Below are positions 43,550 through 60,608 of a DNA stretch of 64,000 nucleotides, one piece after another. The position numbers and the translations under genes are program-made. Under the pieces are notes generated by a model. The model was not told the DNA's origin and did not search any database. It was given only the letters and a program-made list of their open reading frames with translations. Origin of the DNA: Opitutia bacterium Tous-C4FEB (GTDB lineage: Bacteria; Verrucomicrobiota; Verrucomicrobiia; Opitutales; Opitutaceae); the NCBI GenBank assembly GCA_002304445.1, contig NEVA01000004.1, positions 62,001 through 126,000 of the forward strand, in the 5' to 3' direction. Positions within the stretch are counted from its first letter, which is position 1; the number at the start of each line of letters is the position of its first letter.

Positions 43550-44590
43550 GGGGGCGGGCCCGGTGGAGTTGCCGATGACGAGGGGGCCGGGCAGCATCAG
43601 ATCGGTGTAACCCTCGTCGGGCATATTTTCCCCAAGGACGAGGCGGGCGGCGGTCTCGCCGAGTTTGTCGGGACTGGTCCCGGCGCCGGTGATGCGGAGC
43701 GCGCCCTCGATGCTCAGGCGGGAGACGTCGGCGGAAGCGAGACTGAGATCGGCCGGGACGTTCCAGCCCTCGCGTTGGAGCGCGAGCGCGGCGCCGTAGG
43801 CCATTGGGGTGTTGTAGGTGACGAAGGCGGTGGGGAAGTCGCGGCGCTTGGCGTGGGGCAGCAGCCCATGAATGGCCTCACCGCCCTCGGCGCGATCGGC
43901 TTCGGCGACGACGGTGGTGTAGCGTGGGTCGAGGCTCAGGTCGTGCGCATGGAGGGCGTTTTTGAGCGCGAGCAGGCGGGCGTCGTGCCGACCGAGGGAG
44001 GCGTTGCCGCCGAGCCAGCCGATCCGGCGGTGGCCGAGGCCGTGAAGGTGGCGGACGACCTCGGTCAAAGCCTGGGGCTCGTTGCCCAAAACCGAGTGAC
44101 AGAGCCCGCGGTAGTGGGCCGAGACGGCCACGACGTGACGCGTGAGCCGGGTGAGTTCGGACATGAATGGAAGGGCCACTTCGCCGAGGACAACGACGCC
44201 GCCGATTTCATGACTGGGGTGCAAAATCTGGCCAAGTTTGGCGGGCGTGAGTTCATCCTCGGCGCCAAGAAAGACGGAGCGATAACCCCGGGCTTCGAGA
44301 CCGTGGTGCAAGCCGTGTTGGACGTGGCCGAAGTAAGTGCTGGGGATGTAGAGTCGCAGCGGAGCGCGCAGGATGAAGCCGATCTGTTTGACCCGGGAGG
44401 AATCCGGCGAGGAGTCCACTCGCATGCCCTTCGGCAAGTAGCCGGCGCGGACGGCGTGGTCCCAGATGCGTTTATAGGTGTCCGGATTGATGCCCGCGCT
44501 GCGACCGTTGAGGGCGAGGGAGACCAGCGCTTGGGAGATGCCGAGCTGTTCGGCCAGCTGGGTCTGGGAGATCTTGCGCGGGCGGGGCAT
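43544..44590 (-). CDS. LacI-family transcriptional regulator of the symporter/lyase cluster
   Basis: 348 residues. The helix-turn-helix is KISQTQLAEQLGISQALVSLAL near the start; the hinge region is followed by the effector-binding domain (IGFILRAPLRLYIPSTYFGHVQHGLHHGLEARGY, with periplasmic-binding-protein folds; VVRHLHGLGHRRIGWLGG; AFVTYNTPMAYGAALALQREGWNVPADLSLASAD). It is most similar in layout to CcpA/PurR-like repressors. The gene lies 113 bases upstream of the symporter start on the same strand. Inverted TAATAAT/ATTATTA repeats upstream of its own start are a candidate operator. Confidence 0.9.
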   Translation of the reverse strand: MPRPRKISQTQLAEQLGISQALVSLALNGRSAGINPDTYKRIWDHAVRAGYLPKGMRVDSSPDSSRVKQIGFILRAPLRLYIPSTYFGHVQHGLHHGLEARGYRSVFLGAEDELTPAKLGQILHPSHEIGGVVVLGEVALPFMSELTRLTRHVVAVSAHYRGLCHSVLGNEPQALTEVVRHLHGLGHRRIGWLGGNASLGRHDARLLALKNALHAHDLSLDPRYTTVVAEADRAEGGEAIHGLLPHAKRRDFPTAFVTYNTPMAYGAALALQREGWNVPADLSLASADVSRLSIEGALRITGAGTSPDKLGETAARLVLGENMPDEGYTDLMLPGPLVIGNSTGPAPK

Positions 44591-44602
44591 GGCGCCGAGG
44601 TT

Positions 44603-44635
44603 TAATAATAACCAAAACGGGGCAACGAATTATTA
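44603..44635. promoter_or_regulatory. AT-rich inverted repeat upstream of the LacI gene
   Basis: TAATAAT (44603-44609) and ATTATTA (44629-44635) are exact inverted repeats with a 19-base spacer, within 45 bases of the LacI start. The AATAATT core also appears at the symporter promoter (43471-43478). This could be an autoregulatory operator or simply overlapping promoter boxes. Confidence 0.4.
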
Positions 44636-44692
44636 GACGGCAAACGGGCGGCACGCCACCACCCGACCGCGAGCGCGGAGAAACTCCCGGGG

Positions 44693-45688
44693 TCAGCCGT
44701 TTTTTCCGAGACTGATCGGGGTAAAGGGCGCCAACTTCCGGTCCGGAGACTGCGCCGCCAGCTCGTCAAACGCCACCTGTTGCAGCGCGGTCGCCTGCGC
44801 CGGGGAGAGACCGAGCTCGAAGGCCGAGCGCTCGTCTTTGCCGAGCGAGCGCGGGTCGAGGCCGGTGAGATCGCCGAAAATCACCAGCGCCTCCAAGTAA
44901 TAGCCGTAGGTGCTCGCATGCCACTGGTCGTGGGCCCAGAGGTCGACTTGGCCGAACGCCACGCCGTCGTAGGGATTTGGATCGGCGACGCCGGTCTTGA
45001 AGGCGCGATTCCACGCTTCGCCCACGGGGATGACCCCGCGGATAACCGGCGTGGTGGCCGCAGCCCGGTCATAGGCGGCGCGAACGTCTTTGGCCATCTG
45101 TTCGATCGGCTGGCCGTGCCAATGGCCTTTCGCCGGGTAAACCTGATCGGCGCGCGACCAAGTCGAGATCAGGCGAATGTCGACCGCCGGGTTTTTGCCG
45201 TGGAGCAACTCGGCGAGTTGCTTGGCCGAGCGGATGAGGAGGTCGGGGTTGCCGGGTTGAGCGGTGTTGAGCAGGCTTTGGCTCTGCATCACCACGTGGT
45301 CCCAGGCGCGGCCGATCAGGTGGAGTTTTTGCGCGAGGTGAAGATCGAGGCCGGAGCCGCCGACCGTCTCGAGACTGACGTTGAAATCGAGACCGGCCTG
45401 AGTGGCGAAGGTCTTGAACACCGCCGGCACGCCGCCGATGCCGCCGCCGTTGAGATCCGTGACGGTGTGCGCGCGGTGAAACCGCACGGCCGAGCCGGAG
45501 CCGAAGAGAAAGCTGTTTCCGATAAACAGCACGGTGCCCATCGGCTTGAGGGCCGGAGCGGCGGCTGGCGCGGCGACGGTGGGCGTCGGGCCGGCGGGTT
45601 GCGGTTGGGCAACGAGGGCGGCGACCAGGAGCGGCCATAGCAGCAGTCGGGCGGTGAAATGCTCAAGAGTTCGGCGGGTCATCGGCAT
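44693..45688 (-). CDS. Secreted SGNH/GDSL-type hydrolase
   Basis: 331 residues from the ATG at 45688 (MPMTRRTLEHF; a second ATG two codons later is equally possible). The signal segment is ARLLLWPLLVAALVAQ. The SGNH core has TVLFIGNSFLFG with nucleophile S59, an ETVGGSGLD block, HVVMQSQSLL, and DQWHASTYGYYLEALV with the catalytic His. A proline/alanine-rich linker (TPTVAAPAAAPAL) sits between signal and domain. It lies 40 bases after the molybdoenzyme gene on the same strand. It differs from the other SGNH genes in lacking the C-terminal beta-sandwich. Confidence 0.78.
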   Translation of the reverse strand: MPMTRRTLEHFTARLLLWPLLVAALVAQPQPAGPTPTVAAPAAAPALKPMGTVLFIGNSFLFGSGSAVRFHRAHTVTDLNGGGIGGVPAVFKTFATQAGLDFNVSLETVGGSGLDLHLAQKLHLIGRAWDHVVMQSQSLLNTAQPGNPDLLIRSAKQLAELLHGKNPAVDIRLISTWSRADQVYPAKGHWHGQPIEQMAKDVRAAYDRAAATTPVIRGVIPVGEAWNRAFKTGVADPNPYDGVAFGQVDLWAHDQWHASTYGYYLEALVIFGDLTGLDPRSLGKDERSAFELGLSPAQATALQQVAFDELAAQSPDRKLAPFTPISLGKNG

Positions 45689-45728
45689 AAAGAAGCGGTA
45701 GGATAAACGAAAGAAGCCCGGTGGAACG

Positions 45729-46898
45729 TCAGATCCCGTCGCCGGCGGTGAGCGCCAGTTCCACGTCGAGCGGGCGGCGTGAGTTTTCGGTGGCGTAGGC
45801 CTCCATGAAATCGTTCCAAGGCGGAGCATCGGCGAAGTAGACTTGAGCGGGGCGGCTCGCGGCCACGCTCACGTTGCGGGCGATCGGGAGGTTGATGATG
45901 TAGCCGAGATTGTCGGGGTTGTAGTCGAGCGGTTGGGTCTGTCCGGTCTCCGTGTGGGCCCGCGCGAGCAACGTGTAATCGCCGGCGGCTCCGACGGTCC
46001 AGCGCGTCTCCCATTGGCACCAGCAATACGGCTGCCGGATGCCTTTGAGTTGGGCGGCTTGCCAGGTGCGGCCGCCATCGGAGGAGACGTCGACCCCTGC
46101 GATCTTTTCCTCGCCGGCCCAGGCCAGACCGGCCACGAGGTGGCGGCCCAGACCCAGCTGCGCGCCTTCGGGCGGCTGGAGGATGGCGCTCTTGACGGCA
46201 CTCGCGCCGATCGGCTGGCGGACTTTTCCGCCGGGGCCCGGGCGATTCACGGAGTATTTGGTGGTTTGGAAAAAGCCCGGGTAGGCGTGGTCGATCACGC
46301 GCATGGCGCGCAGCCACTTCACGGATGCGACGCCATAATGACCCGGCACGAATAGCCGCATGGGCGCGCCGTGGTTCGGCTCCAGCCACTCGCCGTTCAT
46401 GCGCAGGGCGATGATCGTGTCGGGATGCAGCGCCTTTGCGAGGGGGAGGCTGCGGGAAAAATTCATCGCGTGGCCGTGCTCCTCGCCGTGATCGGCGCCC
46501 TCGAAGACCACTTCGGTCGCGCCGGCGGCGAGGCCGGCCGGTTCGAGCAAGGTGCGGAGCGGCACGCCGCTCCACTCGGCGTTGCCGATCGCGCCGGCGC
46601 CCCACTGCACGCCCTCGGCGCGTTCGCGGAGAAACGAACGCCCGTTGCCGGCGCATTCGACGGTCGCGAACACGGTGTGTTGGGGCAACGAGGCCAACTC
46701 GGCGAACGTCCAGGCGGCGGGCCGGGCGACCAAGCCGTCCAACGTGCAGGTCCAGGCGGCGGCGTCAGTGGCGACGGGCGGCTCAAAGTGGTTGCGCACG
46801 AAAAAGAGTCGGTTCGGGGTGACCCAGCCGGCGGAGTTGTCGAGGGGAGTTTCGCTGTTCTCCGGGGACGCCGTGACGATTTTTCGTTGGGGATTCAT
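45729..46898 (-). CDS. Sulfite-oxidase-like molybdopterin enzyme
   Basis: 389 residues from the ATG at 46898 (MNPQRKIVTASPENSETPL). The Mo-cofactor domain has FFVRNHFEPP, the molybdenum-ligand cysteine C82 in ATVECAGNGRSF, GNAEWSGVPLRTLLE, ADHGEEHGH, and PMRLFVPGHYGVASVKWL. The C-terminal dimerisation domain follows (IAGVDVSSDGGRTWQAAQL, CWCQWETRWTVG, YIINLPIARNVSV). No signal peptide or Tat motif is visible at this start, which is unusual for bacterial sulfite-oxidase relatives, so it may be cytoplasmic or the start may be wrong. Substrate could be sulfite or a related oxyanion. Confidence 0.86.
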   Translation of the reverse strand: MNPQRKIVTASPENSETPLDNSAGWVTPNRLFFVRNHFEPPVATDAAAWTCTLDGLVARPAAWTFAELASLPQHTVFATVECAGNGRSFLRERAEGVQWGAGAIGNAEWSGVPLRTLLEPAGLAAGATEVVFEGADHGEEHGHAMNFSRSLPLAKALHPDTIIALRMNGEWLEPNHGAPMRLFVPGHYGVASVKWLRAMRVIDHAYPGFFQTTKYSVNRPGPGGKVRQPIGASAVKSAILQPPEGAQLGLGRHLVAGLAWAGEEKIAGVDVSSDGGRTWQAAQLKGIRQPYCWCQWETRWTVGAAGDYTLLARAHTETGQTQPLDYNPDNLGYIINLPIARNVSVAASRPAQVYFADAPPWNDFMEAYATENSRRPLDVELALTAGDGI

Positions 46899-47032
46899 AG
46901 GAGGGACGCGGCCGAGCCGCGCCGGACAACCCACACCGCGAGATCGTGCGGAATCGGGCAAGACGGAAAGCGAGGGGGCGACCTTCACGCTATCGCAAAA
47001 GAAACAACCGCAGCCGAAGAGGGCCGATGTTC

Positions 47033-47362
47033 TCAGTCGTGCTTTTTTCCGGGCTTGGGTATCTTGCGCGGACGGCGGTTTGAAGCGGATCGAGACACGT
47101 TTTCCGGAGGGGCCCCGGCGAGAATCGAGGGTTCGACATCAAAATCGATCAACTCGCACGGTTTAAGCCCGCAGGCCTTGGCGAGTTTTTCGATTGTAGA
47201 GAGGCGGATGTCGCGCTTCCGGCCTGCTTCGACCGACTGGTAGTATTTGTAGTCGAGACCCGACTTTTCGGCGAACGCCTCCTGGGTAAGGCCAAGGCCC
47301 TTTCGGAGTTGTTTTACGCGCGCCAGCAGGCGCTCAGCCGTATCGTTTGCCACTTCTAACAT
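47033..47362 (-). CDS. XRE-family helix-turn-helix regulator
   Basis: 109 residues. The helix-turn-helix is LRKGLGLTQEAFAEKSGLDYKYYQSVEAG (residues ~19-47), and the C-terminus is basic (NRRPRKIPKPGKKHD). It is divergent from the helicase gene, with 179 bases between starts that contain two 23-base direct repeats. This layout is typical of the controller (C-type) proteins of restriction-modification systems and of TA-like islands, so it probably times expression of the defence operon. Confidence 0.85.
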   Translation of the reverse strand: MLEVANDTAERLLARVKQLRKGLGLTQEAFAEKSGLDYKYYQSVEAGRKRDIRLSTIEKLAKACGLKPCELIDFDVEPSILAGAPPENVSRSASNRRPRKIPKPGKKHD

Positions 47363-47384
47363 TAGCGGCGGCCCCCTTTCTCAT

Positions 47385-47435
47385 ACACCTTGGCAACGGC
47401 AGTGCGGGCTGGACACCATAGTAACGGTAGTGCGA
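47385..47435. promoter_or_regulatory. Two 23-base direct repeats between XRE regulator and helicase
   Basis: Copies at 47385-47407 and 47413-47435 share ACACC, then AACGG(C/T)AGTGCG at the same spacing, 28 bases apart. An inverted partial copy (CACTACCG) is at 47469-47476. These are likely binding sites of the XRE regulator. Confidence 0.62.
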
Positions 47436-47541
47436 AGTGGGCGTGTTTATGTGCGACGCACCCATCTCCACTACCGGCATCTCCGGCCGAGGTGTGGAAT
47501 CTGTCCTGCGGGACTGAACACCGCGCGAAGGTTCATACCCT

Positions 47542-50500
47542 GTGCCTAGAATCTTCGATAACATCGCTCAGGCGTTGTTGCCTGCGCTGAGCGACACCCT
47601 CGCGGTCGCCCACCGTTCCGACTTTTGCGTCGGCTACTTCAATCTCCGCGGCTGGAAGGCCATCGACACGCTGATCGATGCGTGGCCGGGCGGGGCCGGC
47701 CAGCAATGCCGACTACTCGTCGGCATGCAGCGACTCCCGCAGGACGAGTTGCGCGACGCCTACAGTCTGGCGCCACAGGAGAGCGAGATGAGCATGCAGG
47801 CCGCCGTTCAACTGAAACGCCGCCTAGCTCAGAATTTCCGGGATCAGCTTACGTTCGGCGCACCCACCGACGCCGATGAAGCCGGCCTGCGCCGACTCTC
47901 GGCCCAGCTCAAGTCCGGCAAGGTGGTCGTAAAGCTTTTCCTGCGACACACCCTCCACGCGAAACTCTACCTCTGTTTCCGCAGCGACCCCATCAACCCC
48001 ATCACCGGGTTCCTTGGCAGCAGTAATCTCACGTTCTCCGGCCTCAGCGGACAGGGCGAGCTGAACGTCGATGTGCTCGATCACGACGCGACCGAAAAGC
48101 TCGCGCGCTGGTTCAACGAGCGTTGGGACGACCGCTGGTGCATCGATATCACGAGTGAACTGATCCAAGTCATCGATGAGAGCTGGGCGCGGCCCGACGT
48201 GCTTCCGCCCTATTGGATTTACGTGAAGATGGCCTACCACCTCGCCGAGGAAGCGCGTGCGGGTCTCTCCGAATTCTCCATTCCCGCCGACATGCGCGGC
48301 ACCTTGCTGGAGTTTCAGGCCGCCGCCGTGCGCATTGCCGCCCGCCATCTCCAGAAGCGCGGCGGAGTGATTCTCGGCGATGTCGTCGGTCTCGGGAAAA
48401 CCGTCATGGCCACCGCGCTCGCGCGGGTTTTCCAAGACCCACCGCACTCGTTGGAGACGCTCATTCTTTGTCCGAAAAATCTCGTGGGGATGTGGAAGGG
48501 TTACGCGCACCGCCATCGCCTGATCGCTGAAGTCGTTTCCGTAACGCAGGCCCAGTCCATCCTCCCTGACCTGCGCCGCTACCGCGTCGTCATCATCGAC
48601 GAGAGCCACAATCTCCGCAATCGCGAGGGCCGCCGCTGGGCGGTGATCCGCGACTACCTCGCGCGCAACGCCAGCAAGTGCATTTTGCTTTCGGCCACAC
48701 CCTACAACAAAGCCTACCTCGATCTCGCCAACCAACTCCGGCTTTTTCTCACGCCCGAAGACGGTGTCGGCCTCCGGCCCGAAGAATACCTCCGCACCGA
48801 TTGCGACGGCCGGGTCGATGAATTCACCCGTCGCCACCAGTGCGCTGTAAACTGTCTCGCGGCCTTCGAAAAGAGCCCGCACGCGGACGACTGGCGCGAA
48901 CTTATGCGGCTTTTTATGGTGCGGCGCACCCGCAGCTTCGTGGAGCGCAACTACGCGCTGACGGAGTGTCCCGGCTGCACGACCGTCCTCGCGCCGACGC
49001 ACACCCACTGCGCCAAGTGCGGCCGTGCCAAGGCCAAGGAGGATCGCCGGTTTCTCGTGCTGGAGGGCAACCGCCGTTTCCATTTCCCGAAGCGACGCCC
49101 CAAAGCGCTCACGTTTCGCATCGCCGAAAAAGACCCTGACGACCAATACGCGCGACTCTATTCGGAGCGCGTCGTGGACACGGTCCGGCTGCTCCGGTTG
49201 CCGCGCTACGGACTCGCAAACTATCTCAGACCGGCCCCCGATAAAGCCCCGACGCAGGACGAAGCGGAGATGATGAAAAATCTCTCCCGCGCCGGCCAGC
49301 GGTTGATCGGCTTCTGCCGCACCAATCTTTTCAAACGGCTCGAAAGCAGCGGCCATGCGTTTCTCGTTTCGGTGCGCCGCCACGTTGTGCGGAATGTAAT
49401 CTGGCTGCACGCCCTCGAAAAAGGACAACCGCTCCCGATCGGGACGCAGGACGCGGTGCTGTTCGAAACACGTTCCGACGATGGGGACGACAGCGGTCTT
49501 TTCGCCGGCGGCCCCACGAGCGATCAAGCAAATCAGGTGGCGAGTGTGCCGAAAGACCTCGCCGGCTTTTCTGCCGAGGCCGCCAACGGCTACGCTCTGC
49601 TCCGCGACCACCACAAGCAGAACTTCGACTGGCTGCGGGCCGATCTCTTCATCCCGGACCTCGCCACCCACCTACGGCTCGATGCCGAGCGCCTCCTCGC
49701 CGTGCTCCAACTGGCCGAGACGTGGAATCCGGCGACGGATCGCAAGCTCGCCGAATTGGAAAAATTGATCCGCAAACAACACGGGAGGGAGAAGATTCTG
49801 ATTTTCTCCCAGTTTGCCGACACTGTGAGCTACCTCAGCGGCGAACTGCATCGGCGCGGGGTCGACCGCCTCGCCTCCGTCACGGGAAGCACCGACGATC
49901 CCGCTGCCTTCGCGCAGCGCTTCAGCCCCGAAAGCAATCAGGTACGCGACCAAATCTCCGCCGCCCAGGAACTCCGCGTGCTCATCGCCACCGATGTTTT
50001 GAGCGAGGGGCAGAATCTTCAGGACGCCGCCATCGTCGTAAATTTCGATCTGCCGTGGGCCATCATCCGCCTCATTCAACGAGCCGGCCGCGTGGATCGT
50101 ATCGGCCAGAAAGCAGGAGAGATTCTCTGTTACTCCTTCCTGCCGGCCGAGGGCGTGGAGCGCCTGATAAAACTTCGCTCGCGCGTGCGCCAGCGCTTGC
50201 AGGAAAACGCCGAAGTCGTCGGCACCGACGAAACGTTCTTCGAGGACGAGCAACACGATGGCCTCATTCGCGATCTCTTCACCGAGCGATCCGGCGTCCT
50301 TGATGACCCCGAGGACAGCGAGGTCGATCTCTCCTCGCTCGCCTATCAGATCTGGAAAAACGCGAGCGACGCCGACCCGTTCCTGCGAAAAATCATCCCC
50401 GATCTGCCCGGTGTCGTGTTTTCGACCAAGTCGCTCGCCGCCGTCGCGCCGCGTCCCGTCGGTGCTCCCGGGGTAGTGCCCGTCTCCGGTGCGATGGTGT

Positions 50501-51009
50501 ATGTGCGCACCGGCGACGGCACCGATGCCTTGGCGTGGGTGGACGAAGCCGGCCGCACCGTCACCGAATCGCAGCACGAGATTCTGCGCGCCGCCGCGTG
50601 TGAGCCGACAACTCCGGCGGAGCCGCGTTTGGATCGCCATCACGCGCTCGTGCAAGGTGCCGTCGCCGCGATTCAGACGGAGCACGCCGGGAGCGGTGGG
50701 CAGCTCGGCAAGCCGACCAGCGCGCGACGTCGCACCTATGAACGGCTAAAGGATTACGCGGCCCACGTGAAGGGCACGCTCTTCGATATCAAGCCGATGC
50801 ATCAAGCGCTCGACGCCCTCTACGCGCAACCGCTGACCGAGGCCGCCCGCGATCTCCTGAATCGCGAGCTCCGCGCGGGCATCGCCGACGAGAAACTCGC
50901 CGACCTCATTCTCTCGCTCCACGAGGAAGACCGCCTGTGCCTGCCCAAGGACGACGGCCACACGCGCGAGCCGCAGATCATCTGTTCCCTCGGTATCCGC
51001 CCGCTCTGA
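47542..51009 (+). CDS. PLD-nuclease/SNF2-type helicase (defence protein)
   Basis: 1155 residues with a GTG start and GAAGG ribosome site. Residues ~1-200 are a phospholipase-D-like nuclease with one HxK motif (H139, K141 in LHAKLYL) and GSSN at 159-162. Residues ~255-870 are an SF2/SNF2 ATPase: Walker A GLGKT (283-287), DESH (353-356), SAT (384-386), a zinc ribbon C476/C479/C490/C493, and the C-terminal lobe with ILIFSQFADTVSYL, LIATDVLSEGQNLQDA and IQRAGRVDRIGQ. A helical C-terminal domain follows. It starts an operon with an adenine methyltransferase 5 bases later and a DprA-like gene. A restriction-type anti-phage function is likely: the helicase translocates and the PLD domain cuts. Confidence 0.9.
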   Translation: MPRIFDNIAQALLPALSDTLAVAHRSDFCVGYFNLRGWKAIDTLIDAWPGGAGQQCRLLVGMQRLPQDELRDAYSLAPQESEMSMQAAVQLKRRLAQNFRDQLTFGAPTDADEAGLRRLSAQLKSGKVVVKLFLRHTLHAKLYLCFRSDPINPITGFLGSSNLTFSGLSGQGELNVDVLDHDATEKLARWFNERWDDRWCIDITSELIQVIDESWARPDVLPPYWIYVKMAYHLAEEARAGLSEFSIPADMRGTLLEFQAAAVRIAARHLQKRGGVILGDVVGLGKTVMATALARVFQDPPHSLETLILCPKNLVGMWKGYAHRHRLIAEVVSVTQAQSILPDLRRYRVVIIDESHNLRNREGRRWAVIRDYLARNASKCILLSATPYNKAYLDLANQLRLFLTPEDGVGLRPEEYLRTDCDGRVDEFTRRHQCAVNCLAAFEKSPHADDWRELMRLFMVRRTRSFVERNYALTECPGCTTVLAPTHTHCAKCGRAKAKEDRRFLVLEGNRRFHFPKRRPKALTFRIAEKDPDDQYARLYSERVVDTVRLLRLPRYGLANYLRPAPDKAPTQDEAEMMKNLSRAGQRLIGFCRTNLFKRLESSGHAFLVSVRRHVVRNVIWLHALEKGQPLPIGTQDAVLFETRSDDGDDSGLFAGGPTSDQANQVASVPKDLAGFSAEAANGYALLRDHHKQNFDWLRADLFIPDLATHLRLDAERLLAVLQLAETWNPATDRKLAELEKLIRKQHGREKILIFSQFADTVSYLSGELHRRGVDRLASVTGSTDDPAAFAQRFSPESNQVRDQISAAQELRVLIATDVLSEGQNLQDAAIVVNFDLPWAIIRLIQRAGRVDRIGQKAGEILCYSFLPAEGVERLIKLRSRVRQRLQENAEVVGTDETFFEDEQHDGLIRDLFTERSGVLDDPEDSEVDLSSLAYQIWKNASDADPFLRKIIPDLPGVVFSTKSLAAVAPRPVGAPGVVPVSGAMVYVRTGDGTDALAWVDEAGRTVTESQHEILRAAACEPTTPAEPRLDRHHALVQGAVAAIQTEHAGSGGQLGKPTSARRRTYERLKDYAAHVKGTLFDIKPMHQALDALYAQPLTEAARDLLNRELRAGIADEKLADLILSLHEEDRLCLPKDDGHTREPQIICSLGIRPL

Positions 51010-51014
51010 TCCCC

Positions 51015-54000
51015 ATGACACTCGACTTCGCCCGCGCCCGCCCGCTCCTCCAATCCGGCGACCTCGCCCGGCTCTTCCGCGAGGAACTCGGCTGGGAGCC
51101 AAGCCGACACCGCCTCACGCTGCGAGCCGCCGAGCAAGACCACGCGCTGACCGCCTTCGCAGAGAAGCGCGGGTTCACCGCGTGGCTTTGCGTCGCTCCG
51201 GATGGCGGGCTGCCAGACCACGCCACCCGGCTGAAAATTGAGCGAAAACTCACCGAGACGAATTTCGAGCATCTCATTGTTTTCGCTACGCCCGACCGCG
51301 CCCGCCAGTCGTGGATGTGGGTTCGGCGCGAGACGGGGAAACCGCTCGCGGTCCGCACCCACGAATTTTTCCGCGCCCAGCCCGGCGATTCGCTGCTCCA
51401 GAAACTCGACTCGCTCTATGTCTCGTTCGCCGAGGAAGAAGCTGGAATCGCAATCGTCCAAATGGGCGGGAAGGCCCGCGCCGCCTTCGACCTCGAGCGT
51501 GTCACCAAGGCGTTTTACCGTGATTTCGACACGCACCGGAAGGCCTTCCTCACGTTCATCGACGGCATCGGCGCAGTGGCCGACCGCGAGTGGTATGCGT
51601 CCGTCATGCTCAACCGCCTGATGTTCGTCTATTTCATCCAGAAGAAGGGGTTTCTCGACGGCGACCGCGACTACCTCCGCCATCGCCTCCAGCGCAGCCA
51701 GCAAGAAAAAGGGAAGGATAAGTTCTACACCTTTTACCGCTACTTCCTGCTCCGTCTCTTCCACGAGGGCTTCGGCAGGCGCCGCCAAGACCGCGCGCCC
51801 GATCTCGAAAAACTACTCGGCAACATCCCCTATCTCAACGGTGGTCTCTTCGACGTGCATGAACTCGAAAAACCCGAGCGCTACGGCGAGGAAATTCAGA
51901 TTCCCGACAAGGCCTTCGAGCGCGTTTTCGATTACTTCGACGCCTACCAGTGGCACCTCGACGAACGCCCGCTCCGCGCCGACAACGAGATCAACCCCGA
52001 TGTCCTCGGCTATATCTTCGAAAAATACATCAACCAAAAACAAATGGGGGCGTATTACACGAAGGAGGATATCACCGATTATATCGGGAAAAATACCATC
52101 CTGCCGTTCCTCTTCGATGCCGCCCGTGCCCGGTGTAAAGTCGCCTTCGAAAATCCGGGCGGTCCGACCGTCTGGGATTTGCTCCGCGAAAATCCCGACC
52201 GCTACATCTATCCCGCCGTCCGGCACGGCACGGATAAAAAACTCCCGCCAGAAATCGCGGCGGGCCTCGATCCCAACCAGCCCGACCTGATCGCGCGCCG
52301 CAAGGCGTGGAACAAGCCCGCGCCCGCCGACTACGCTTTGCCCACGGAAATCTGGCGCGAGGTCGTCGCCCGTCGGCAGCGTTGTGAGGAGATCAGGAAG
52401 AAACTCACGGCGGGCGAAGTCCGCGACGTGAACGACTTCATCACGCTCAATCTCGATCTCCGCCAGTTTTCGCAGGATGTCATTCAGAGCTGCGAAGGCC
52501 CTGACCTGCTCATGGCCCTGTGGCATGCCATCACAACGATCACGGTCCTCGATCCCACCGGTGGCTCGGGCGCGTTCGTGTTTGCCGCACTCAACATTCT
52601 CGACCCGCTCTACGAGGCCTGTCTCGACCGCATGGAAGCGTTCCTCGCCGAGTGGGACGAACATGGTCGCAAGGCGCACCCGAACTACCACAAGAAGTTC
52701 GCTGAAGTCCTCGGTCGCGTAGACGCGCACCCCAATCGCCGCTACTTCGTCCTAAAATCGATCATCCTGAACAACCTCTACGCCGTGGACATCATGGAGG
52801 AGGCGGTGGAGATCTGTAAGCTGCGCCTGTTCCTCAAGCTCGCCGCGCAGGTCGATCCGGACGCCACCAAGGACAACCTCGGCATCGAGCCGCTCCCGGA
52901 CGTCGATTTCAACATCCGCGCCGGCAACACCCTTGTCGGCTACGCCACCTACGACGAAGTGAAACGCGCCGTCACCAGCGCACTGGATTTCGACGACGCG
53001 ATGGGAAAGATCGCCGTCAAAGCCGCCGACCTGCAGCAGACGTTCGACAAATTTCGCCAGCTCCAGACTGAGGGCGACGGTTCAGTGCCTACCACCCACA
53101 AGCACGAACTCCAGAAACGGCTCAAGGCCCTAGACGACGAACTCAACAGCTACCTCGCCGGCGAATACGGCGTGAAAGTGAGCGACAAAGTTGCGTTCGC
53201 CAAATGGGTGAAATCACACCAGCCGTTCCACTGGTTCATCCAGTTCTACGGCATCCTCACCAGCGGTGGTTTCGATGTCATAGTCGGCAATCCCCCCTAC
53301 GTGGAATACAAGGACGTCAAAGATTCCTACAAGGTCCACGGATTCCAAACGCTGGAATGCGGCGACCTCTACGCATTCACAATGGAGCGCGCCTACCGGC
53401 TTCTCCAAAGAGGCGGACGGGTTGGCCTAATTGTTCCAGTGTCCATTTTCTGCGTGGACGGCTTCAAGACGCTTCAAACGCTTTCGCTTCAGAAACTGGA
53501 ATCAATATGGGCATCGAGTTACGCGAATCGACCAGCTCAACTTTTCGATGGCGCTCAAAAACGGTTAACCATCGTTCTCGGAAAGAGAGGCGAATCGACG
53601 ATGCCTGCGGTTCACACGACGGCCTATTATCGTTGGCGCAGGGAGGAGTTTCCGAACTTATTTCGCGCGCGGGTTCACTATGCACCAACGCACTCCAATT
53701 TTTCGGTCTTTCCGGCCTCGCTGGAGAAGCTCGGCAGCACAATCGAAGTTTCCGCTTTCTCAAAGCTCGCCATGAGAAACGAGCGCCTCGAAGCCGCGGT
53801 AACCTCGGCCGTAAAGCATCGCGTGTTTTACACTCGCAAGTTCGGATACTTCCTCGCGTTTCTGAATTTCATTCCGCGCGTTTCGGAAATTCGCACTCGT
53901 AAGTTGGTCGCGCCTTCGGAACTCAAAGACCTCTGCCTTCCAGATAACGCGACCGTGCTGACCACCGTTGCATCCCTCAGTTCATCCACCTTCTTTTGGT

Positions 54001-54332
54001 TTTGGAACGTGCTGTCGGACTGCCGGAACTTGAATCGCCGGGACATCTTTTCGTTTCCGCTCAACCCCGTTGCGTTGACCGAGCATGAGCGCCGGCGGCT
54101 CGCCGACTTGGGAGAAAAATATCTCAAGGGGCTCAAGGATGCATCCTATGAAATGCAGAAGAGTGGGTTGATGCTCCAGACCTTTGAGTATTCATCCACC
54201 AAACCCATCCTCGACGAAATCGACGCGGTGCTCGCAGAGCACTACGGGTTCACGGCGGAGGAGTTGGATTTCATCCTGAACTACGACATCAAATACCGCC
54301 TCGGCCGCGACACCGAGAACGAAGAGGAATGA
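51015..54332 (+). CDS. Eco57I-type N6-adenine DNA methyltransferase (type IIG/PglX-like)
   Basis: 1105 residues from the ATG at 51015, five bases after the helicase stop. Motif I is LDPTGGSGAF (residues 512-519 start it), and motif IV is NPPY at 759-762 in IVGNPPYVEY, the pair that identifies gamma-class adenine methyltransferases. FEKYINQKQMGAYYTKEDI precedes motif I as in Eco57I and PglX proteins. The C-terminal third (~780-1105) is the likely target-recognition region, ending EELDFILNYDIKYRLGRD. The N-terminal ~200 residues (RLKIERKLTETNFEHLIVF) may hold a nuclease-like fold, but no certain PD-ExK motif is seen. The short gap implies co-translation with the helicase. Confidence 0.92.
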   Translation: MTLDFARARPLLQSGDLARLFREELGWEPSRHRLTLRAAEQDHALTAFAEKRGFTAWLCVAPDGGLPDHATRLKIERKLTETNFEHLIVFATPDRARQSWMWVRRETGKPLAVRTHEFFRAQPGDSLLQKLDSLYVSFAEEEAGIAIVQMGGKARAAFDLERVTKAFYRDFDTHRKAFLTFIDGIGAVADREWYASVMLNRLMFVYFIQKKGFLDGDRDYLRHRLQRSQQEKGKDKFYTFYRYFLLRLFHEGFGRRRQDRAPDLEKLLGNIPYLNGGLFDVHELEKPERYGEEIQIPDKAFERVFDYFDAYQWHLDERPLRADNEINPDVLGYIFEKYINQKQMGAYYTKEDITDYIGKNTILPFLFDAARARCKVAFENPGGPTVWDLLRENPDRYIYPAVRHGTDKKLPPEIAAGLDPNQPDLIARRKAWNKPAPADYALPTEIWREVVARRQRCEEIRKKLTAGEVRDVNDFITLNLDLRQFSQDVIQSCEGPDLLMALWHAITTITVLDPTGGSGAFVFAALNILDPLYEACLDRMEAFLAEWDEHGRKAHPNYHKKFAEVLGRVDAHPNRRYFVLKSIILNNLYAVDIMEEAVEICKLRLFLKLAAQVDPDATKDNLGIEPLPDVDFNIRAGNTLVGYATYDEVKRAVTSALDFDDAMGKIAVKAADLQQTFDKFRQLQTEGDGSVPTTHKHELQKRLKALDDELNSYLAGEYGVKVSDKVAFAKWVKSHQPFHWFIQFYGILTSGGFDVIVGNPPYVEYKDVKDSYKVHGFQTLECGDLYAFTMERAYRLLQRGGRVGLIVPVSIFCVDGFKTLQTLSLQKLESIWASSYANRPAQLFDGAQKRLTIVLGKRGESTMPAVHTTAYYRWRREEFPNLFRARVHYAPTHSNFSVFPASLEKLGSTIEVSAFSKLAMRNERLEAAVTSAVKHRVFYTRKFGYFLAFLNFIPRVSEIRTRKLVAPSELKDLCLPDNATVLTTVASLSSSTFFWFWNVLSDCRNLNRRDIFSFPLNPVALTEHERRRLADLGEKYLKGLKDASYEMQKSGLMLQTFEYSSTKPILDEIDAVLAEHYGFTAEELDFILNYDIKYRLGRDTENEEE

Positions 54333-54874
54333 CGCCCGTCGCACTTAACGCCACCGACGCCCGTTATCCCGCGCGTTTGCGGCGGCGTCTGGGCGACGCT
54401 GCGCCGGCTCAACTCTCTGCCCTCGGCAATCTGGACTTGCTGGCGTCGCCCAAGACCGCGCTGTTCTGCTCCGCCCGCTGTCCCGGTGAAGCCATCCTCC
54501 GCACCTACGACAAGGCCGCCCGCTGGCGCGATGCGGGCCGCGGCGTCATCAGCGGTTTCCATTCACCCATCGAAAAGGAATGCCTGAGCATCCTCCTGCG
54601 CGGAACGCCGCCAGTCATCATCTGCCCCGCCCGCAGCCTGGAGAAGCTGCGCCTTCCGTCCGCGTGGAGATCGCCGCTGAACGATGGTCGTCTCTTGATT
54701 CTCTCGTGCATTTCTTCGCCCCACCATCGGGTCACGGCCGAACTCGCCGCCCGCCGCAATCACTTCGTCGCCGCCCTCGCCGACGAAGTCTGGTTCGCCC
54801 ACATCGCTTCCGGCGGCCAAACGGAGCAACTGGCCAAAACCATCGCCAGTTGGCCGCCCACCTCTCGGCCCTGA
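54329..54874 (+). CDS. DprA/Smf-like (SLOG-fold) protein
   Basis: 181 residues, overlapping the methyltransferase stop by four bases (ATGA), so it belongs to the same operon. The Rossmann-like DprA segment is visible: YPARLRRRLGDAAPAQLSALG, then KTALFCSARCPGEAILRTYDKAARWRDAGRGVISGFHSPIEKE, and TPPVIICPARSLEKLRLP. It is half the length of a normal DprA and lacks the C-terminal winged helix. DprA/SLOG folds bind single-stranded DNA or nucleotides, so it may act as a loader, sensor or nucleotide-signal component. It is unusual as a third partner of a helicase/methyltransferase pair. The 76-bp repeat R1 begins 7 bases after its stop. Confidence 0.78.
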   Translation: MTPVALNATDARYPARLRRRLGDAAPAQLSALGNLDLLASPKTALFCSARCPGEAILRTYDKAARWRDAGRGVISGFHSPIEKECLSILLRGTPPVIICPARSLEKLRLPSAWRSPLNDGRLLILSCISSPHHRVTAELAARRNHFVAALADEVWFAHIASGGQTEQLAKTIASWPPTSRP

Positions 54875-54880
54875 CCGCGC

Positions 54881-54956
54881 CCGAGTTCACTCACATCCTG
54901 AGCCTCTTCCCCCTCGTCCCCGCGCCCGTGAAAGCCGCCGCGCTTACGACGTTCAA
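54881..54956 (+). repeat. 76-bp direct repeat R1 (methyltransferase-tail-like)
   Basis: First of three copies; reads PEFTHILSLFPLVPAPVKAA on the plus strand but is not in a complete gene. It lies between the DprA-like stop and the HicA stop (4-base overlap). It is the most diverged copy, with about a quarter of positions different from R2 and R3. Confidence 0.75.
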
Positions 54957-55177
54957 CGCCGGCCCAGCAATTCTTCGACCGTGAGGCCGATGTCCTTGGC
55001 AATTTGCCGCAGGAGTGGCGGCGCGATGTCTCGCCCTTTGTGCAAAGGCACCGTCGTGCCGCGTCCGTCTGCGTGGCGGTATTGAACGTGCGAACCGCGT
55101 TGGCGCACGGCGGCGAAACCCAGCATCTCCAGCAACCGGCAAACTTCGCCGGGTTTGAGGACAGGGACGTTTCCCAT
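54953..55177 (-). CDS. HicA-family toxin (mRNA interferase)
   Basis: 74 residues from the ATG at 55177. The double-stranded-RNA-binding-like HicA fold is clear: LKPGEVCRLLEMLGFAAVRQRGSHVQYRH, with the catalytic His in GSHVQY, and TVPLHKGRDIAPPLLRQIAKDIGLT. HicA toxins cleave mRNA and are neutralised by HicB. It lies 2 bases after hicB, the reverse of the most common hicAB order but frequent for YcfA-type pairs. Confidence 0.88.
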   Translation of the reverse strand: MGNVPVLKPGEVCRLLEMLGFAAVRQRGSHVQYRHADGRGTTVPLHKGRDIAPPLLRQIAKDIGLTVEELLGRR

Positions 55178-55179
55178 CG

Positions 55180-55389
55180 TCAGGCGACCGCGACGCTTTG
55201 CGTGCCGACGAATTCCGCCTCCAGCTTTGGCTCGCCGTCTTCCAGTAGCATGGCAACGACTTCGCGCAGGTTGGCGTTCAGTTCGTCCAAGGATTCCGCC
55301 TGCGAGTGCGCACCGGGGAAGCCCGGCACGTAGCCGATCAACAGGCCCGTCACGGGGTCGCGTTCCACGACTGCGGTGAAATTTTTCAT
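55180..55389 (-). CDS. HicB-family antitoxin
   Basis: 69 residues from the ATG at 55389 (MKNFTAVVERDPVTGLLIGYVPGFPG). The partially degraded RNase H fold of HicB is recognisable (VVERDPVTGLLIGYVPGFPGAHSQAESLDELNANLREVVAMLLEDGE). No C-terminal DNA-binding domain is present, so repression may need the toxin. It precedes hicA in a two-gene unit on the minus strand, between repeats R1 and R2. Confidence 0.86.
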   Translation of the reverse strand: MKNFTAVVERDPVTGLLIGYVPGFPGAHSQAESLDELNANLREVVAMLLEDGEPKLEAEFVGTQSVAVA

Positions 55390-55462
55390 GCCGATATGCT
55401 TGCTCCGCCTGGCCGGAACGCAAGCCCACCGAACCTCGCCGAATGCCACGCCCCGGCCGATT

Positions 55463-55538
55463 CCGAGTTCACCCACATCGTCGGCACCTTCCGCCTCGTC
55501 TCCGCGCCCGTGAAGTCTGCGGCGCTCGCGGCGTTTCG
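55463..55538 (+). repeat. 76-bp direct repeat R2
   Basis: Second copy; reads SEFTHIVGTFRLVSAPVKSA and continues ALAAFRR. It differs from R3 at fewer than ten positions over 76 bases. It separates the HicBA module from the next toxin-antitoxin pair. Confidence 0.78.
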
Positions 55539-55611: not shown

Positions 55612-55812
55612 ATGAGCAAAGCCGAAATTCTCGCCGAGCTGCCGAACCTTTCCGCAGGGGAGCGGGACGACGTGAGACGACGGCTGGCCGAACTGGACGA
55701 AGAGAACGCCGATGCCGTGGCGCTGGCCCGCGCCGAGGAACTGGGCCGAGGATCGGTGCCGCCAAAAACTCAAGCGGATGTCTTTCGCAACGCGCGCGCC
55801 GCGCTCTCGTGA
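55612..55812 (+). CDS. Antitoxin, addiction-module (Unstab_antitox-like) family
   Basis: 66 residues: MSKAEILAELPNLSAGERDDVRRRLAELDEE is the usual N-terminal helix-turn-helix-like module of small ParD/RelB-related antitoxins, followed by an acidic, flexible tail that would wrap the toxin. The stop overlaps the GTG start of the toxin by four bases, so the pair is coupled. Confidence 0.8.
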   Translation: MSKAEILAELPNLSAGERDDVRRRLAELDEENADAVALARAEELGRGSVPPKTQADVFRNARAALS

Positions 55813-56098
55813 ACCGTTGGTTTCACCCGGCCTTTGAGGTCGAGCTGATCGAGGCCGCGCGCTATCTCGAACACCAACGCGGCGATTTTGGCCGGCAGTT
55901 TCTCAATGAAGTCGAGGCCGCCATCGGAACGATCATGGAGGCACCCGCTAGGTGGCGGCCGTGGCCCGGTGACATCCGGCGCTTCCTACTTTCCTCGTTT
56001 CGCTACACCATCCGCTATCGCATCCGTCGGGATGAAGGTTTGGTGGAATTCCTGAGTATCGTCCATACCTCGCGCCAGCCCGACACGGGCGCGAATCG

Positions 56099-56102
<4 letters not shown>
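55809..56102 (+). CDS. RelE/ParE-family toxin
   Basis: 97 residues with a GTG start. The RelE/ParE fold shows in FHPAFEVELIEAARYLEHQRGDFGRQFLNEVEAAIGTIMEAPARWRP and RFLLSSFRYTIRYRIRRDEGLVEFLSIVH, the ParE-type core with the conserved Arg/Tyr strand. It is either a gyrase inhibitor or an mRNA interferase. Its last bases overlap the start of the truncated helicase-tail ORF. Confidence 0.85.
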
Positions 56103-57118
<1,016 letters not shown>

Positions 57119-57185: not shown

Positions 57186-57324
57186 TCAGCGGTAGAGCCA
57201 GTAGCGTTTGCTCTGCTCTCGCTTTGTTCGATGCGGGCGCCGTCGCGCTGGAGGGCGCGGACGAAGGCTTCGCTGCCGAGGTGGCGGATGAAGCCGTTGA
57301 CCTCGCCGGGCTTCGCGGCGGCGA
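57186..57324 (-). pseudogene. Partial copy B of the namZ 3' end
   Basis: 139 bases almost identical to the last part of namZ (59223 onwards): the stop codon, ANATGSTA-type region, and the codons for PGEVNGFIRHLGSEAFVRALQRDGARI. About 45 bases that encode LGFWLKQWREQARVY in namZ are missing and the join shifts the frame. It cannot encode a functional protein. It marks the left side of the RelE-type module at 57401-57877. Confidence 0.82.
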
Positions 57325-58080: not shown

Positions 58081-58322
58081 TTATTTGTAGAGCCAACAGC
58101 GCTTGCTCGGCTCTTGGTCGATGCGGGCGCCGTCGCGCTGGAGGGCGCGCATGAAGGCTTCGCTGCCGACGTGGCGGATGAAGCCGTTGACCTCGCCGGG
58201 CTTTGCGGCGGCGAACGGGTTCTTTGGCTCCCGTTTGCAGGCGAGGCGCATGAGCTGAAAACCAAGCTCGGTGGGCTGCCACGCGTCGAAATCGGAGCTC
58301 TCGGTGTAGAGGCCGATGGCCA
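58081..58322 (-). pseudogene. Partial copy A of the namZ 3' end
   Basis: About 80 codons (from VAIGLYTESSDFDAWQPTELGFQLMRLACKREPKNPF to the stop, ending RCWLYK) that match the last 80 residues of namZ with some substitutions. The same segment LGFWLKQWREQARVY is missing as in copy B. It has no promoter or N-terminus and is a duplicate fragment. It lies between the RelE-type and VapBC modules. Confidence 0.85.
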
Positions 58323-58346: not shown

Positions 58347-58784
58347 TTACGGGCCGACGTTCAGCCGAAGCGTGGTGGCCAGCTTCCGTTGGTTCGCATC
58401 GAACGATAGAAAGCAGGTCGCATTCAGCAGGCGGGCGGTGGCGACGTGCAGAATATCGAATGAGCGGTGCCCGCCGCTCATGGTATGAAGCCCGGAAATC
58501 CGCGAAGCCTCGTTTACGATGGCGTTCACATCGCAGGAAGCCGGCTGCAGGTGGCCGCTGCTGAAATCGGTCTCGAATGCGGCGAGGGAGGCGAGTGCGT
58601 CGGCTCGGGAGATTGCTTGGCGAAAGGTGGCGAAACGAATCGCGTTACCCAACTCATACCGCCCTAGCGTGGTGACCGTGAGCGGCAGCTGGGTTTGTTG
58701 CACCCAGCGTTTTGCTGCGGGCGTGTGCGCGTCGTTACCGAACAGCGAAAAGAGAAAACTCGTGTCGGCGACTGCGGTGGCCAT
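58347..58784 (-). CDS. VapC-type PIN-domain toxin
   Basis: 145 residues, PIN-domain ribonuclease. Conserved acidic residues are D8 in AVADTSFLFSLFG, E44-type Glu in GRYELGNAIRF, and Asp in SFDILHVATARLL and FLSFDANQRKLA. It is expected to cleave tRNA or rRNA. It starts 1 base after the antitoxin stop, in a two-gene minus-strand unit between namZ copy A and namZ itself. Confidence 0.9.
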   Translation of the reverse strand: MATAVADTSFLFSLFGNDAHTPAAKRWVQQTQLPLTVTTLGRYELGNAIRFATFRQAISRADALASLAAFETDFSSGHLQPASCDVNAIVNEASRISGLHTMSGGHRSFDILHVATARLLNATCFLSFDANQRKLATTLRLNVGP

Positions 58785-59222: not shown

Positions 59223-60608
59223 TCAGCGGTAGAGCCAGTAACGTTTGCTCTGCTCTTGATAGACGCGGGCCTGTTCGCGCCATTGCTTTAGCCAGAATCC
59301 GAGGTCGATGCGGGCGCCGTCGCGCTGGAGGGCGCGGACGAAGGCTTCGCTGCCGAGGTGGCGAATGAAGCCGTTGACCTCGCCGGGCTTAGCGGCGGCG
59401 AATGGGTTCTTTGGCTCCAGTTTGCAGGCGAGGCGCATGAGCTGAAAACCAAGCTCGGTGGGCTGCCAGGCGTCGAAATCGGAAATCTCGGTGTAGATGC
59501 CGACGGCGGGTTTGCCGGTCTTGGTGTTGGGCACGCTGATGGTGCGGAAGCGGACTCCGGCGACCGGCAAGGCGCGGAGTTCTTTTTCGAGCGCTTCGCG
59601 GGGCGTGGTTTTGTGGGAAACGCCGCGGAAGATGTGTTCGGAGCCGACGCCGCTGCGGAAGCCGCCGAGGTAGGTGCCGAGGCCGGTCATCGGGTAGCCG
59701 ATCACCGCCGCGTAGTCTTGGATGCCGCCGGACGTGGGGACCCAGGTAAGTCCGGTTTCGGGCCAGCGCATCGAGCGGGTCCAGCCGCGCATGGGGATGA
59801 CGGTGAGTTTGCCGGCGGCGCGTTGGGCGGGCGTGACGTCGATGCCGCCGGGGGCTTGGGCGTCGCGGGCGAGCCGCGCGAGTTCGCCCATGGTGAGGCC
59901 GTGGACGTAGGGCACGCGAAACGCGCCGACGTAGCTCATCCATTTCGCGTCGAGCGGCGGACCGTCGACTTTGAGGCCGCCGAGGGGATTGGGCCGGTCG
60001 AGCACGATGAGCTCCTTGCCGTTTTCGAAGCAGGCCTCGAGGGCGAGTTTCATCGCGCTGGTAAACGTGTAGCTGCGCGTGCCGATGTCCTGCAGGTCCA
60101 CGATGAGGGCGTCGATATCCTTGAGCTGGGCGGGGGAGGCTTTGAAGCTTTTGCCTTTGTAGGCGACGCCGCTGTAGAGCGAATAGACCATGAGGCCGGT
60201 GCGCGGGTCGATCTGGTCGGGGTATTTTTTCTCGGCCGGGAGGGCGCCGTAGACGCCGTGTTCGCCGGCGTAGAGGGCGACGAGTTTGATGCCGGGGGCG
60301 CGGCGAAGGACGTCGATGGTGCTGATGCCGTTGCGATTGACGCCGGCGGGGTGGGTGAGGAGGCCGAGACGTTTCCCGCGGACGACGGCAAAACCGTCGG
60401 CCTCGAGCACGTCGATGCCGAGCATCACGCGGGGTGCGGGATCGGCGCGCGGCGGGGTGAAGTAGACACGGGCCGGTGGGTTGGCGGGCGCGGCGGTGGG
60501 GCGGGTAGGCGGAGCGGCGGGAGTGGCGGCGCAACCGAAGAGGCCGAAGGTCGCCGTCGCGAGGGCGACTAAAAATCGGACGGCAGAAACGCGCTCGGGG
60601 ACGGCCAT
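59223..60608 (-). CDS. namZ: NamZ-like exo-beta-N-acetylmuramidase (DUF1343) lipoprotein
   Basis: 461 residues. A lipoprotein signal ends in LFGC, with a proline/alanine-rich linker (PAAPPTRPTAAPANPPAR). The DUF1343 core is evident: LGIDVLEADGFAVVRGKRLGLLTHPAGVNRNG, FAGEHG-type LYAGEHGVYG, YSLYSG, IVDLQDIGTRSYTFTSAMKLALEAC, and ELIVLDRPNPLGGLKVDGP. DUF1343 enzymes remove N-acetylmuramic acid residues from peptidoglycan fragments. The final 80 residues are the parent of copies A and B. It follows glkA-type genes on the same strand by 27 bases and is probably the ancestral neighbour of the island. Confidence 0.88.
   Translation of the reverse strand: MAVPERVSAVRFLVALATATFGLFGCAATPAAPPTRPTAAPANPPARVYFTPPRADPAPRVMLGIDVLEADGFAVVRGKRLGLLTHPAGVNRNGISTIDVLRRAPGIKLVALYAGEHGVYGALPAEKKYPDQIDPRTGLMVYSLYSGVAYKGKSFKASPAQLKDIDALIVDLQDIGTRSYTFTSAMKLALEACFENGKELIVLDRPNPLGGLKVDGPPLDAKWMSYVGAFRVPYVHGLTMGELARLARDAQAPGGIDVTPAQRAAGKLTVIPMRGWTRSMRWPETGLTWVPTSGGIQDYAAVIGYPMTGLGTYLGGFRSGVGSEHIFRGVSHKTTPREALEKELRALPVAGVRFRTISVPNTKTGKPAVGIYTEISDFDAWQPTELGFQLMRLACKLEPKNPFAAAKPGEVNGFIRHLGSEAFVRALQRDGARIDLGFWLKQWREQARVYQEQSKRYWLYR

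Follow-up and report, generated by a model that had tools for sequence, protein, structure and literature searches.

An operon in the Tous-C4FEB window

The window analysed here, a stretch of 64,000 nucleotides from contig NEVA01000004.1 of Opitutia bacterium Tous-C4FEB (Verrucomicrobiota), carries an operon of three genes encoding a phospholipase D (PLD) nuclease fused to an SNF2-type helicase, an Eco57I-type adenine methyltransferase and a short DprA-like protein (Table 1). An initial annotation, made from the letters alone, had proposed these genes as a defence operon, and open reading frames (ORFs) and Pfam matches agree with it on their positions, kinds and common strand, on the PLD domain at the N terminus of the helicase and on the ATGA by which the DprA-like gene is coupled to that of the methyltransferase. 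The trio is a recurrent unit, beyond chance, and its co-occurrence is widespread, with relatives coming from many bacterial phyla.

The helicase was compared with 45 relatives at 52–78% identity to the window protein (alignment A4, 46 sequences; here and in alignments A3, 48 methyltransferases, and A2, 46 DprA-like proteins, sequences were chosen for completeness). The PLD residues H139, K141, S160, N162 and E173 are invariant in all 46 and D149 is present in 45, while the motor residues G283, K286, T287, D353, E354, R847 and R850 are kept throughout; in the window protein Pfam starts the SNF2 domain at residue 259. The zinc ribbon that had been noticed within the ATPase is present in the window and is not a general feature, the CxxC/CxxC arrangement (476–493) being found in eight of the 46 helicases, that of the window included. 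We scanned 14 window proteins, from 43.5 to 60.6 kb, with PADLOC, and the matches listed for the helicase (the best 25 of 50 families) are partial only: C3a139 ‘HKD+Snf2’ is the best at 132 bits, and the motor also matches in part the DrmD profiles and BrxHI and BrxHII.

The catalytic residues of the methyltransferase are equally well kept, with D513, P514, G517, G519, F521, N759, P760 and P761 invariant in 48 of 48 sequences and Y762 in 47. Together with their recurring gene order, this conservation bears out the description of the helicase and methyltransferase as a restriction-like pair. Among the best 25 of 59 PADLOC families, the methyltransferase matches PDLC03628, a model named ‘Type IIG’, over its full length (1146.8 bits, residues 6–1101), and it partly resembles PglX. 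Its predicted structure (predicted local distance difference test score, pLDDT, 84) is closest by Z score to CamA (26.4 over 437 residues), LlaGI (23.0) and BrxX (22.8), followed by LlaBIII (22.0), DrdV (21.9) and MmeI (20.3). The N-terminal part follows an alpha-beta-beta-beta-alpha-beta order in the full-length model; 154 or more of its residues lie outside all 50 fold matches listed, and no D...ExK is conserved at positions 30–61, 64–79 and 85–86 of the 48 sequences.

The third protein scores 27.2 bits against Pfam DNA_processg_A, just below the cut-off of 29.6, and its sole PADLOC match is PsyrA at 77.1 bits; among the NCBIfam matches listed, none for the operon proteins comes near its cut-off. 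Its model (pLDDT 96; predicted template modelling score, pTM, 0.91) is matched first, by Z score, by ShosA (21.4, 174 residues, 2.4 Å), and next by the DprA proteins of S. pneumoniae (3uqz, 18.5, 171 residues) and H. pylori (18.1); ranked by Foldseek E-value, DprA stands first and ShosA fifth. The 46 aligned sequences share the majority-consensus motifs CSxKCPG, GGFHSPxEKECL, CPARS and RN, and G33, S48, G76, E82, L90 and R102 are invariant among them. The genome of the window has a separate, ordinary DprA of 398 amino acids, and alignment to it confirms that the winged helix is missing from the short protein, as is the N-terminal part, and that GSR and SGLARGID are replaced. A canonical DprA was rejected as an identification, the Rossmann/SLOG domain being present and both the GSR motif and the C-terminal winged helix absent. 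Since these parts are lost and the motifs replaced, the single-stranded DNA-binding and RecA-loading roles of DprA are not simply transferable to it.

A divergent XRE-family gene lies about 180 bp upstream of the helicase gene, as expected for the controller suggested in the initial annotation. In a single-sequence search, which leaves more diverged regulators elsewhere possible, such a gene adjoining the helicase was matched only in the window and in one other locus (L054; loci are cited by our own numbers), so that a general controller is not borne out and a lineage-specific one is probable.

Table 1. Features of the operon and of the region that follows it, by position in the window (aa, amino acids; HTH, helix-turn-helix; SAM, S-adenosylmethionine)
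Feature	Position	Strand	Evidence or remark
XRE-family HTH protein, 109 aa	47033..47362	-	HTH_3 51.9 bits; PADLOC ‘Control_protein’ 49.9 bits
PLD-nuclease/SNF2-type helicase fusion, 1155 aa, GTG start	47542..51009	+	ORF, Pfam
N-terminal PLD (HKD) nuclease domain, helicase residues 24–195	47611..48126	+	PF13091 PLDc_2 37.5 bits
CxxC...CxxC zinc-ribbon-like insert in ATPase, C476–C493	48967..49020	+	read from sequence
Helicase_C motor domain, residues 735–855	49744..50106	+	PF00271 58.9 bits
Eco57I-type adenine-N6 DNA methyltransferase with target-recognition region, 1105 aa	51015..54332	+	PF07669 90.8 bits
SAM-binding motif DPxxGSGAF, methyltransferase residues 513–521	52551..52577	+	alignment
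Catalytic motif NPPY, methyltransferase residues 759–762	53289..53300	+	alignment
ATGA overlap of methyltransferase stop and DprA-like start codons	54329..54332	+	sequence
Short DprA-like (SLOG/Rossmann) protein, 181 aa, no winged helix	54329..54874	+	Pfam, fold, alignment
HicA/HicB	55004..55476	-	between 94-nucleotide repeats
ParE	55809..56102	+	between 94-nucleotide repeats
ORF of 339 aa	56099..57118		no Pfam match; start encodes third 94-nucleotide repeat
PIN-domain gene	58347..58784	-	between 101/205-nucleotide repeats

Recurrence of the three genes

A search of genome contigs with the methyltransferase gave 329 relatives, and loci were fetched for the best 80 of these. The bulk of the 80 come from metagenome bins, and their record titles name Verrucomicrobia, Nitrospirae, Acidobacteria, Proteobacteria, Chloroflexi, Poribacteria, Planctomycetes, Cyanobacteria, Gemmatimonadota, Armatimonadetes and others. 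With 16 extra stretches from genomes of the window's phylum, a usable methyltransferase was available in 91 loci overall; L032, a duplicate of L124, was kept in this gene-order set and left out of the 56 loci used below for slots and gaps, and the pairs L048/L049 and L097/L114 each come from one genome. Of the 80 loci with at least 3.3 kb of upstream sequence, 77 have the helicase gene preceding the methyltransferase gene on the same strand, the exceptions being L062, L076 and L120. A DprA-like gene follows on the same strand in 47/63 loci with at least 3 kb downstream, in 41/53 with at least 5 kb and in 37/47 with at least 7.9 kb, the window being counted in all three. In L075, L093, L094 and L118 it lies 8–16 kb downstream on the same contig and strand, and when those four contigs are followed further the gene is present in 41 of the 47 methyltransferase-anchored loci (window included). 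The initial annotation had named as grounds for abandoning its proposal that such pairs might almost never carry the DprA-like gene, which these counts contradict, or that an existing model might already describe the triplet, for which none was found in PADLOC, NCBIfam or Pfam.

Viral contigs give a similar picture among close relatives, and support the DprA-like gene as the regular partner it had been proposed to be. Fourteen of the 80 viral loci found with the helicase alignment were examined, and six of them (L221–L226) are close relatives; all four of these with room downstream (L221, L222, L223 and L225) carry helicase, methyltransferase and DprA-like genes, the last two overlapping in L221, L222 and L225 and having one ORF between them in L223, while L224 and L226 are cut off. 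The DprA-like search of viral contigs gave four matches, two of which, L217 and L218, fall on contigs already represented by L221 and L223; the 8 kb upstream of L219 contain neither a helicase nor a methyltransferase gene, and L220 begins at a contig end. A scan of annotated phages found no DprA-like gene.

At the level of whole genomes, 14 of 387 from the phylum have a strong methyltransferase match and 30 a strong DprA-like match, with both in 11 against about 1.1 expected (hypergeometric P 2.7e-11, relatedness uncorrected, at thresholds of >200 bits for the methyltransferase and >100 bits for the DprA-like protein that were chosen after the lists were known). At an E value of 0.001 the counts rise to 99 and 92 genomes, and to judge from weak scores and long frames we read most of these genomes as probably carrying general Eco57I enzymes and ordinary DprA. 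The strong DprA-like matches number 31. Twelve of them share a contig with helicase or methyltransferase sequence (two with C-terminal methyltransferase pieces and one with an N-terminal piece), and 14 are uninformative, 13 having less than 5 kb upstream and one not having been fetched. One of the 12, L174 (G129:C30), has a different order, with the DprA-like gene directly before, and overlapping, that of a close helicase relative.

The slot between methyltransferase and DprA-like genes

The description of a three-gene operon holds for the window form, whereas in relatives the operon is usually larger than that, and cargo that varies separates the methyltransferase and DprA-like genes. The gap between these two exceeds 150 bp in 46 of the 56 loci, has a median over all 56 of 1.7 kb, and extends to 7.5 kb inside the sequence fetched, or to about 16 kb in L093. 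In 44/56 loci the gap contains one or more ORFs of at least 80 amino acids on the operon strand, and ORFs of this size number 103 on that strand and 13 on the opposite one; where such a same-strand ORF is present, the first is within 60 bp of the methyltransferase gene in 26/44 loci and the last is within 60 bp of the DprA-like gene in 24/44. The DprA-like gene is not always the end of the operon, since the next ORF is often close and on the same strand (same strand in 25/44 loci, within 60 bp in 15). In the remaining 10/56 loci the gap is 150 bp or less and the genes abut or overlap, with an ATGA junction in five (the window, L050, L054, L057 and L127). The window operon is thus of the cargo-free form, and the idea that the DprA-like gene requires cargo was dropped in view of these ten loci. 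That the gene abuts the methyltransferase gene when cargo is absent argues for an association with the core, beyond any partnership with a cargo toxin.

Slot genes were taken as ORFs called by a longest-first script, uncurated. Of the 105 listed, 88 were scanned jointly, after four L124 duplicates and 13 ORFs under about 145 amino acids had been dropped; single scans covered 39 cargo proteins and one gene lying beyond a DprA-like gene. Among the joint matches listed (the best 25 of 80 Pfam families and the best 25 of 504 PADLOC families, some overlapping) are AAA_15/AAA_21 (9 ORFs), Schlafen AlbA_2 (8), PIN (4), YhcG, GmrSD and HNH (3 each), and DarT, Macro, OLD TOPRIM, Mrr and PLD (2 each). 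Known defence families are therefore included, among them OLD/PtuA-type ATPases and DarTG, and the kinds of cargo differ from locus to locus, for example DarT in L042, DarG in L032, GmrSD in L088, YhcG in L066 and L035, OLD in L070, DUF3644 in L051 and PLD in L064. Other slot genes (e.g. in L072, L092, L101, L103, L108, L110 and L113) have no Pfam match at the thresholds used, and these are candidates for undescribed effectors. With several such genes at hand, the pair of methyltransferase and DprA-like genes offers an anchor for finding new effectors. Restriction loci with an effector gene inside them are already known from prrC, as the accessible part of PMC12707154 describes; what is new here is that a DprA-like gene bounds the slot on its far side.

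The sequence beyond the DprA-like gene in the window is rich in repeats. Three direct repeats of 94 nucleotides (54863–54956, 55445–55538 and 56118–56211; 71–86% identical) occur only here in the genome, and punctuate small modules that follow the DprA-like gene without being tied to the operon. Direct repeats of 101 and 205 nucleotides, 94–95% identical, lie at 57224–57324, 58114–58320 and 59301–59507, and by their sequence look like partial duplications of a gene for a 461-amino-acid protein on the minus strand (59223–60608).

A proposed mechanism and its relation to known systems

We think it fairly probable that the operon encodes a split, ATP-dependent restriction-modification system to which a SLOG-fold regulator has been added, a proposal that builds on the observed gene content, order and overlap, the conserved catalytic residues, the co-occurrence and the cargo slot. 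Family knowledge would then predict methylation, translocation, cleavage and phage defence along the following lines. The methyltransferase would read a specific, probably asymmetric DNA site and mark host adenines, and its helicase partner, bearing a single HKD half-site, would engage unmarked DNA and translocate on it with ATP. A PLD half-site requires a second copy for activity; cleavage would therefore be expected where two complexes meet and their PLD halves pair. Type ISP enzymes are the one-polypeptide counterpart, and a two-complex encounter model has been proposed for their cleavage. The translationally coupled DprA-like protein may bind a product or state of the attack (the candidates are single-stranded DNA, nucleotides and partner proteins) and so gate the system by holding or releasing the nuclease, together with the second-line effectors that most relatives encode immediately before its gene; its ligand and target are the most tentative elements of the proposal. 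A gate or lock seems its likeliest role, with the helicase, the cargo or both as the object, since ShosA is the nearest fold and DprA homologues are known as antitoxins in the available text of PMC9122126.

Several observations weigh against a fixed tie between the DprA-like protein and the restriction pair. Six of the 47 loci (L052, L065, L067, L068, L102 and L120) lack the gene, and in the genomes of these six five gave no match and that of L067 only 50 bits in a frame of 403 amino acids. None of the eight distant helicases among the 14 viral loci (hidden Markov model, HMM, scores of 231–278) is accompanied by a DprA-like gene, and five of the 31 strong matches in the phylum (L164, L168, L172, L178 and L180) have no helicase or methyltransferase gene in at least 9 kb upstream. 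On plasmids most of the helicase is present in 20 records, whereas a tblastn search of all plasmids with the DprA-like protein returned one distant record only, a RecQ/DprA pair; no DprA-like gene was found in four helicase/methyltransferase regions, which represent more distant pairs (Synechocystis pSYSX, Anabaena pANACY.05 and Pelobacter pPRO1, examined by HMM, and Rhodococcus pRJH4, by annotation only). Evolutionary distances in 27 loci (L080 having been removed for its poor DprA-like row) correlate weakly between DprA-like protein and methyltransferase (rho 0.32, P 0.001) and not significantly between DprA-like protein and helicase (rho 0.11, P 0.15), falling to rho -0.17 for pairs with a helicase distance above 0.35; helicase and methyltransferase give rho 0.58. 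The shortness of the DprA-like protein may explain part of this, given that 170-column blocks of the helicase correlate with the methyltransferase at 0.40–0.59, and such blocks of the methyltransferase with the helicase at 0.01–0.64 (5–95% ranges). The plasmid pairs and the poor tracking of distances weaken the case for an obligatory role.

The pSYSX region of Synechocystis 6803 (L158, record 43696–51129) has a VapC-type toxin gene between its helicase and methyltransferase genes and, downstream, a ubiquitin-like gene set (E2, ThiF, multiubiquitin). An attempt to assign a recognition motif through this strain failed, Slr6095 belonging to a Type I system and the consulted part of PMC6560206 giving no motif for the pSYSX relative.

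It is rather unlikely, in our view, that the DprA-like gene is one more riding cargo gene with no functional tie to the pair, as the weak congruence, turning negative with the helicase among diverged pairs, the five of 17 informative phylum matches that stand apart and the plasmid pairs might suggest; the gene is kept in 41/47 loci and all four close viral relatives while the cargo varies, on the same strand and, in five loci, overlapping the methyltransferase gene by ATGA. A tentative alternative is an antitoxin-type safety lock, as with ShosA or PsyrA, that would directly keep the helicase-nuclease or a cargo toxin inactive until infection sets it free. The Z scores (ShosA 21.4 against DprA 18.5), the PsyrA match and the antitoxins among DprA homologues (PMC9122126, available text) all point that way, but no phosphoribosyltransferase or RecQ-type toxin gene is found among the window proteins tested, the gene persists without cargo in 10/56 loci, and pairs lacking it are evidently tolerated. 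The replacement of GSR and SGLARGID by other conserved motifs, and the presence among SLOG-fold neighbours of LOG-type enzymes with adenosine monophosphate and of the ThsA SLOG domain with cyclic ADP-ribose, could instead suggest that the protein activates cargo effectors through a nucleotide signal that it produces or binds; we regard this as unlikely, for the window revealed no partner that would make such a signal, cargo to be activated is absent from ten loci and a common fold is no evidence of function. Quite improbable is a Type IIG enzyme acting by itself among incidental neighbours: the full-length match to the PADLOC model of that name speaks for it, but the helicase gene precedes the methyltransferase gene in 77/80 loci and the tabulated N-terminal positions of the 48 methyltransferases contain no conserved D...ExK.

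The split restriction-modification system may also be extended to a platform with a plug-in slot, in which the restriction pair forms the first line and the DprA-like protein, on detecting that the pair is engaged in an attack or has been blocked, releases whichever abortive effector occupies the slot. We hold this extension to be doubtful; under it, a DprA derivative would act in many phyla as a switch that guards restriction. A compact DprA derivative closing a restriction operon, behind exchangeable second-line effectors, would tie the SLOG fold to restriction control and would explain how abortive systems join a restriction locus.

Of the known systems, the Type-2 BR (Hma) systems come close; they pair an N6-methyltransferase with a Swi2/Snf2 helicase that bears an HKD nuclease at its N terminus, and they include a DUF499 ATPase (PMC12839542, as available). 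The same pair is found here, but the defining DUF499 AAA+ ATPase is absent and a DprA-like gene is added; the window's genome (96% complete) has no DUF499 match, and DUF499 occurs somewhere in 10/29 related genomes; in L093 it shares the contig at a distance of about 370 kb, and in L081, provided that a single contig is involved, the distance exceeds 900 kb. Neither DprA nor SLOG occurs in the main text of PMC12839542. With DISARM the operon shares PLD nuclease, helicase and adenine methyltransferase (PMC9142583, in the part available), but the 14 window proteins include no DrmA or DrmB (DUF1998) among the matches listed, as the initial annotation had held, the only such match being one of 43.6 bits to DrmA in the helicase motor. 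BREX was set aside likewise, since PglZ, BrxC and other core genes were absent from the matches listed for the same proteins. The Type ISP enzymes LlaGI and LlaBIII have a similar methyltransferase fold and share the activities of nuclease, helicase motor and methyltransferase; they are single polypeptides with a different nuclease, whereas here the methyltransferase and the motor with its PLD nuclease are encoded by separate genes and a third protein is added, so that the operon was not assigned to Type ISP.

A DprA-like partner is shared with ShosTA, PsyrTA and RqlHI, ShosA being the closest solved fold. Partners of the RqlHI kind include RecQ-type parts, and one of our loci (L161) has a RecQ gene beside a DprA gene. 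The available text of PMC9122126 calls DprA homologues the antitoxins of shosTA, syrTA and rqlHI, names phosphoribosyltransferases as partners and reports that a pair of DprA and phosphoribosyltransferase gave defence against T7 and lambda. In the window the partners are a PLD-SNF2 helicase and a methyltransferase, and membership of ShosTA/PsyrTA was rejected, the neighbours of the DprA-like gene being the methyltransferase and HicA/HicB genes and not a phosphoribosyltransferase or RecQ-type toxin gene. Full-text literature searches, with most subscription papers outside their reach, found among the papers listed no description of the helicase-methyltransferase-DprA triplet or of its slot. As in the prrC-type guardians of Type I loci, a second-line effector is embedded in a restriction locus (PMC12707154, accessible part), but here the cargo is of diverse kinds and a DprA-like gene stands beyond the slot. 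Taken with these comparisons, the operon looks like a widespread and so far undescribed version of a phage defence of known type.

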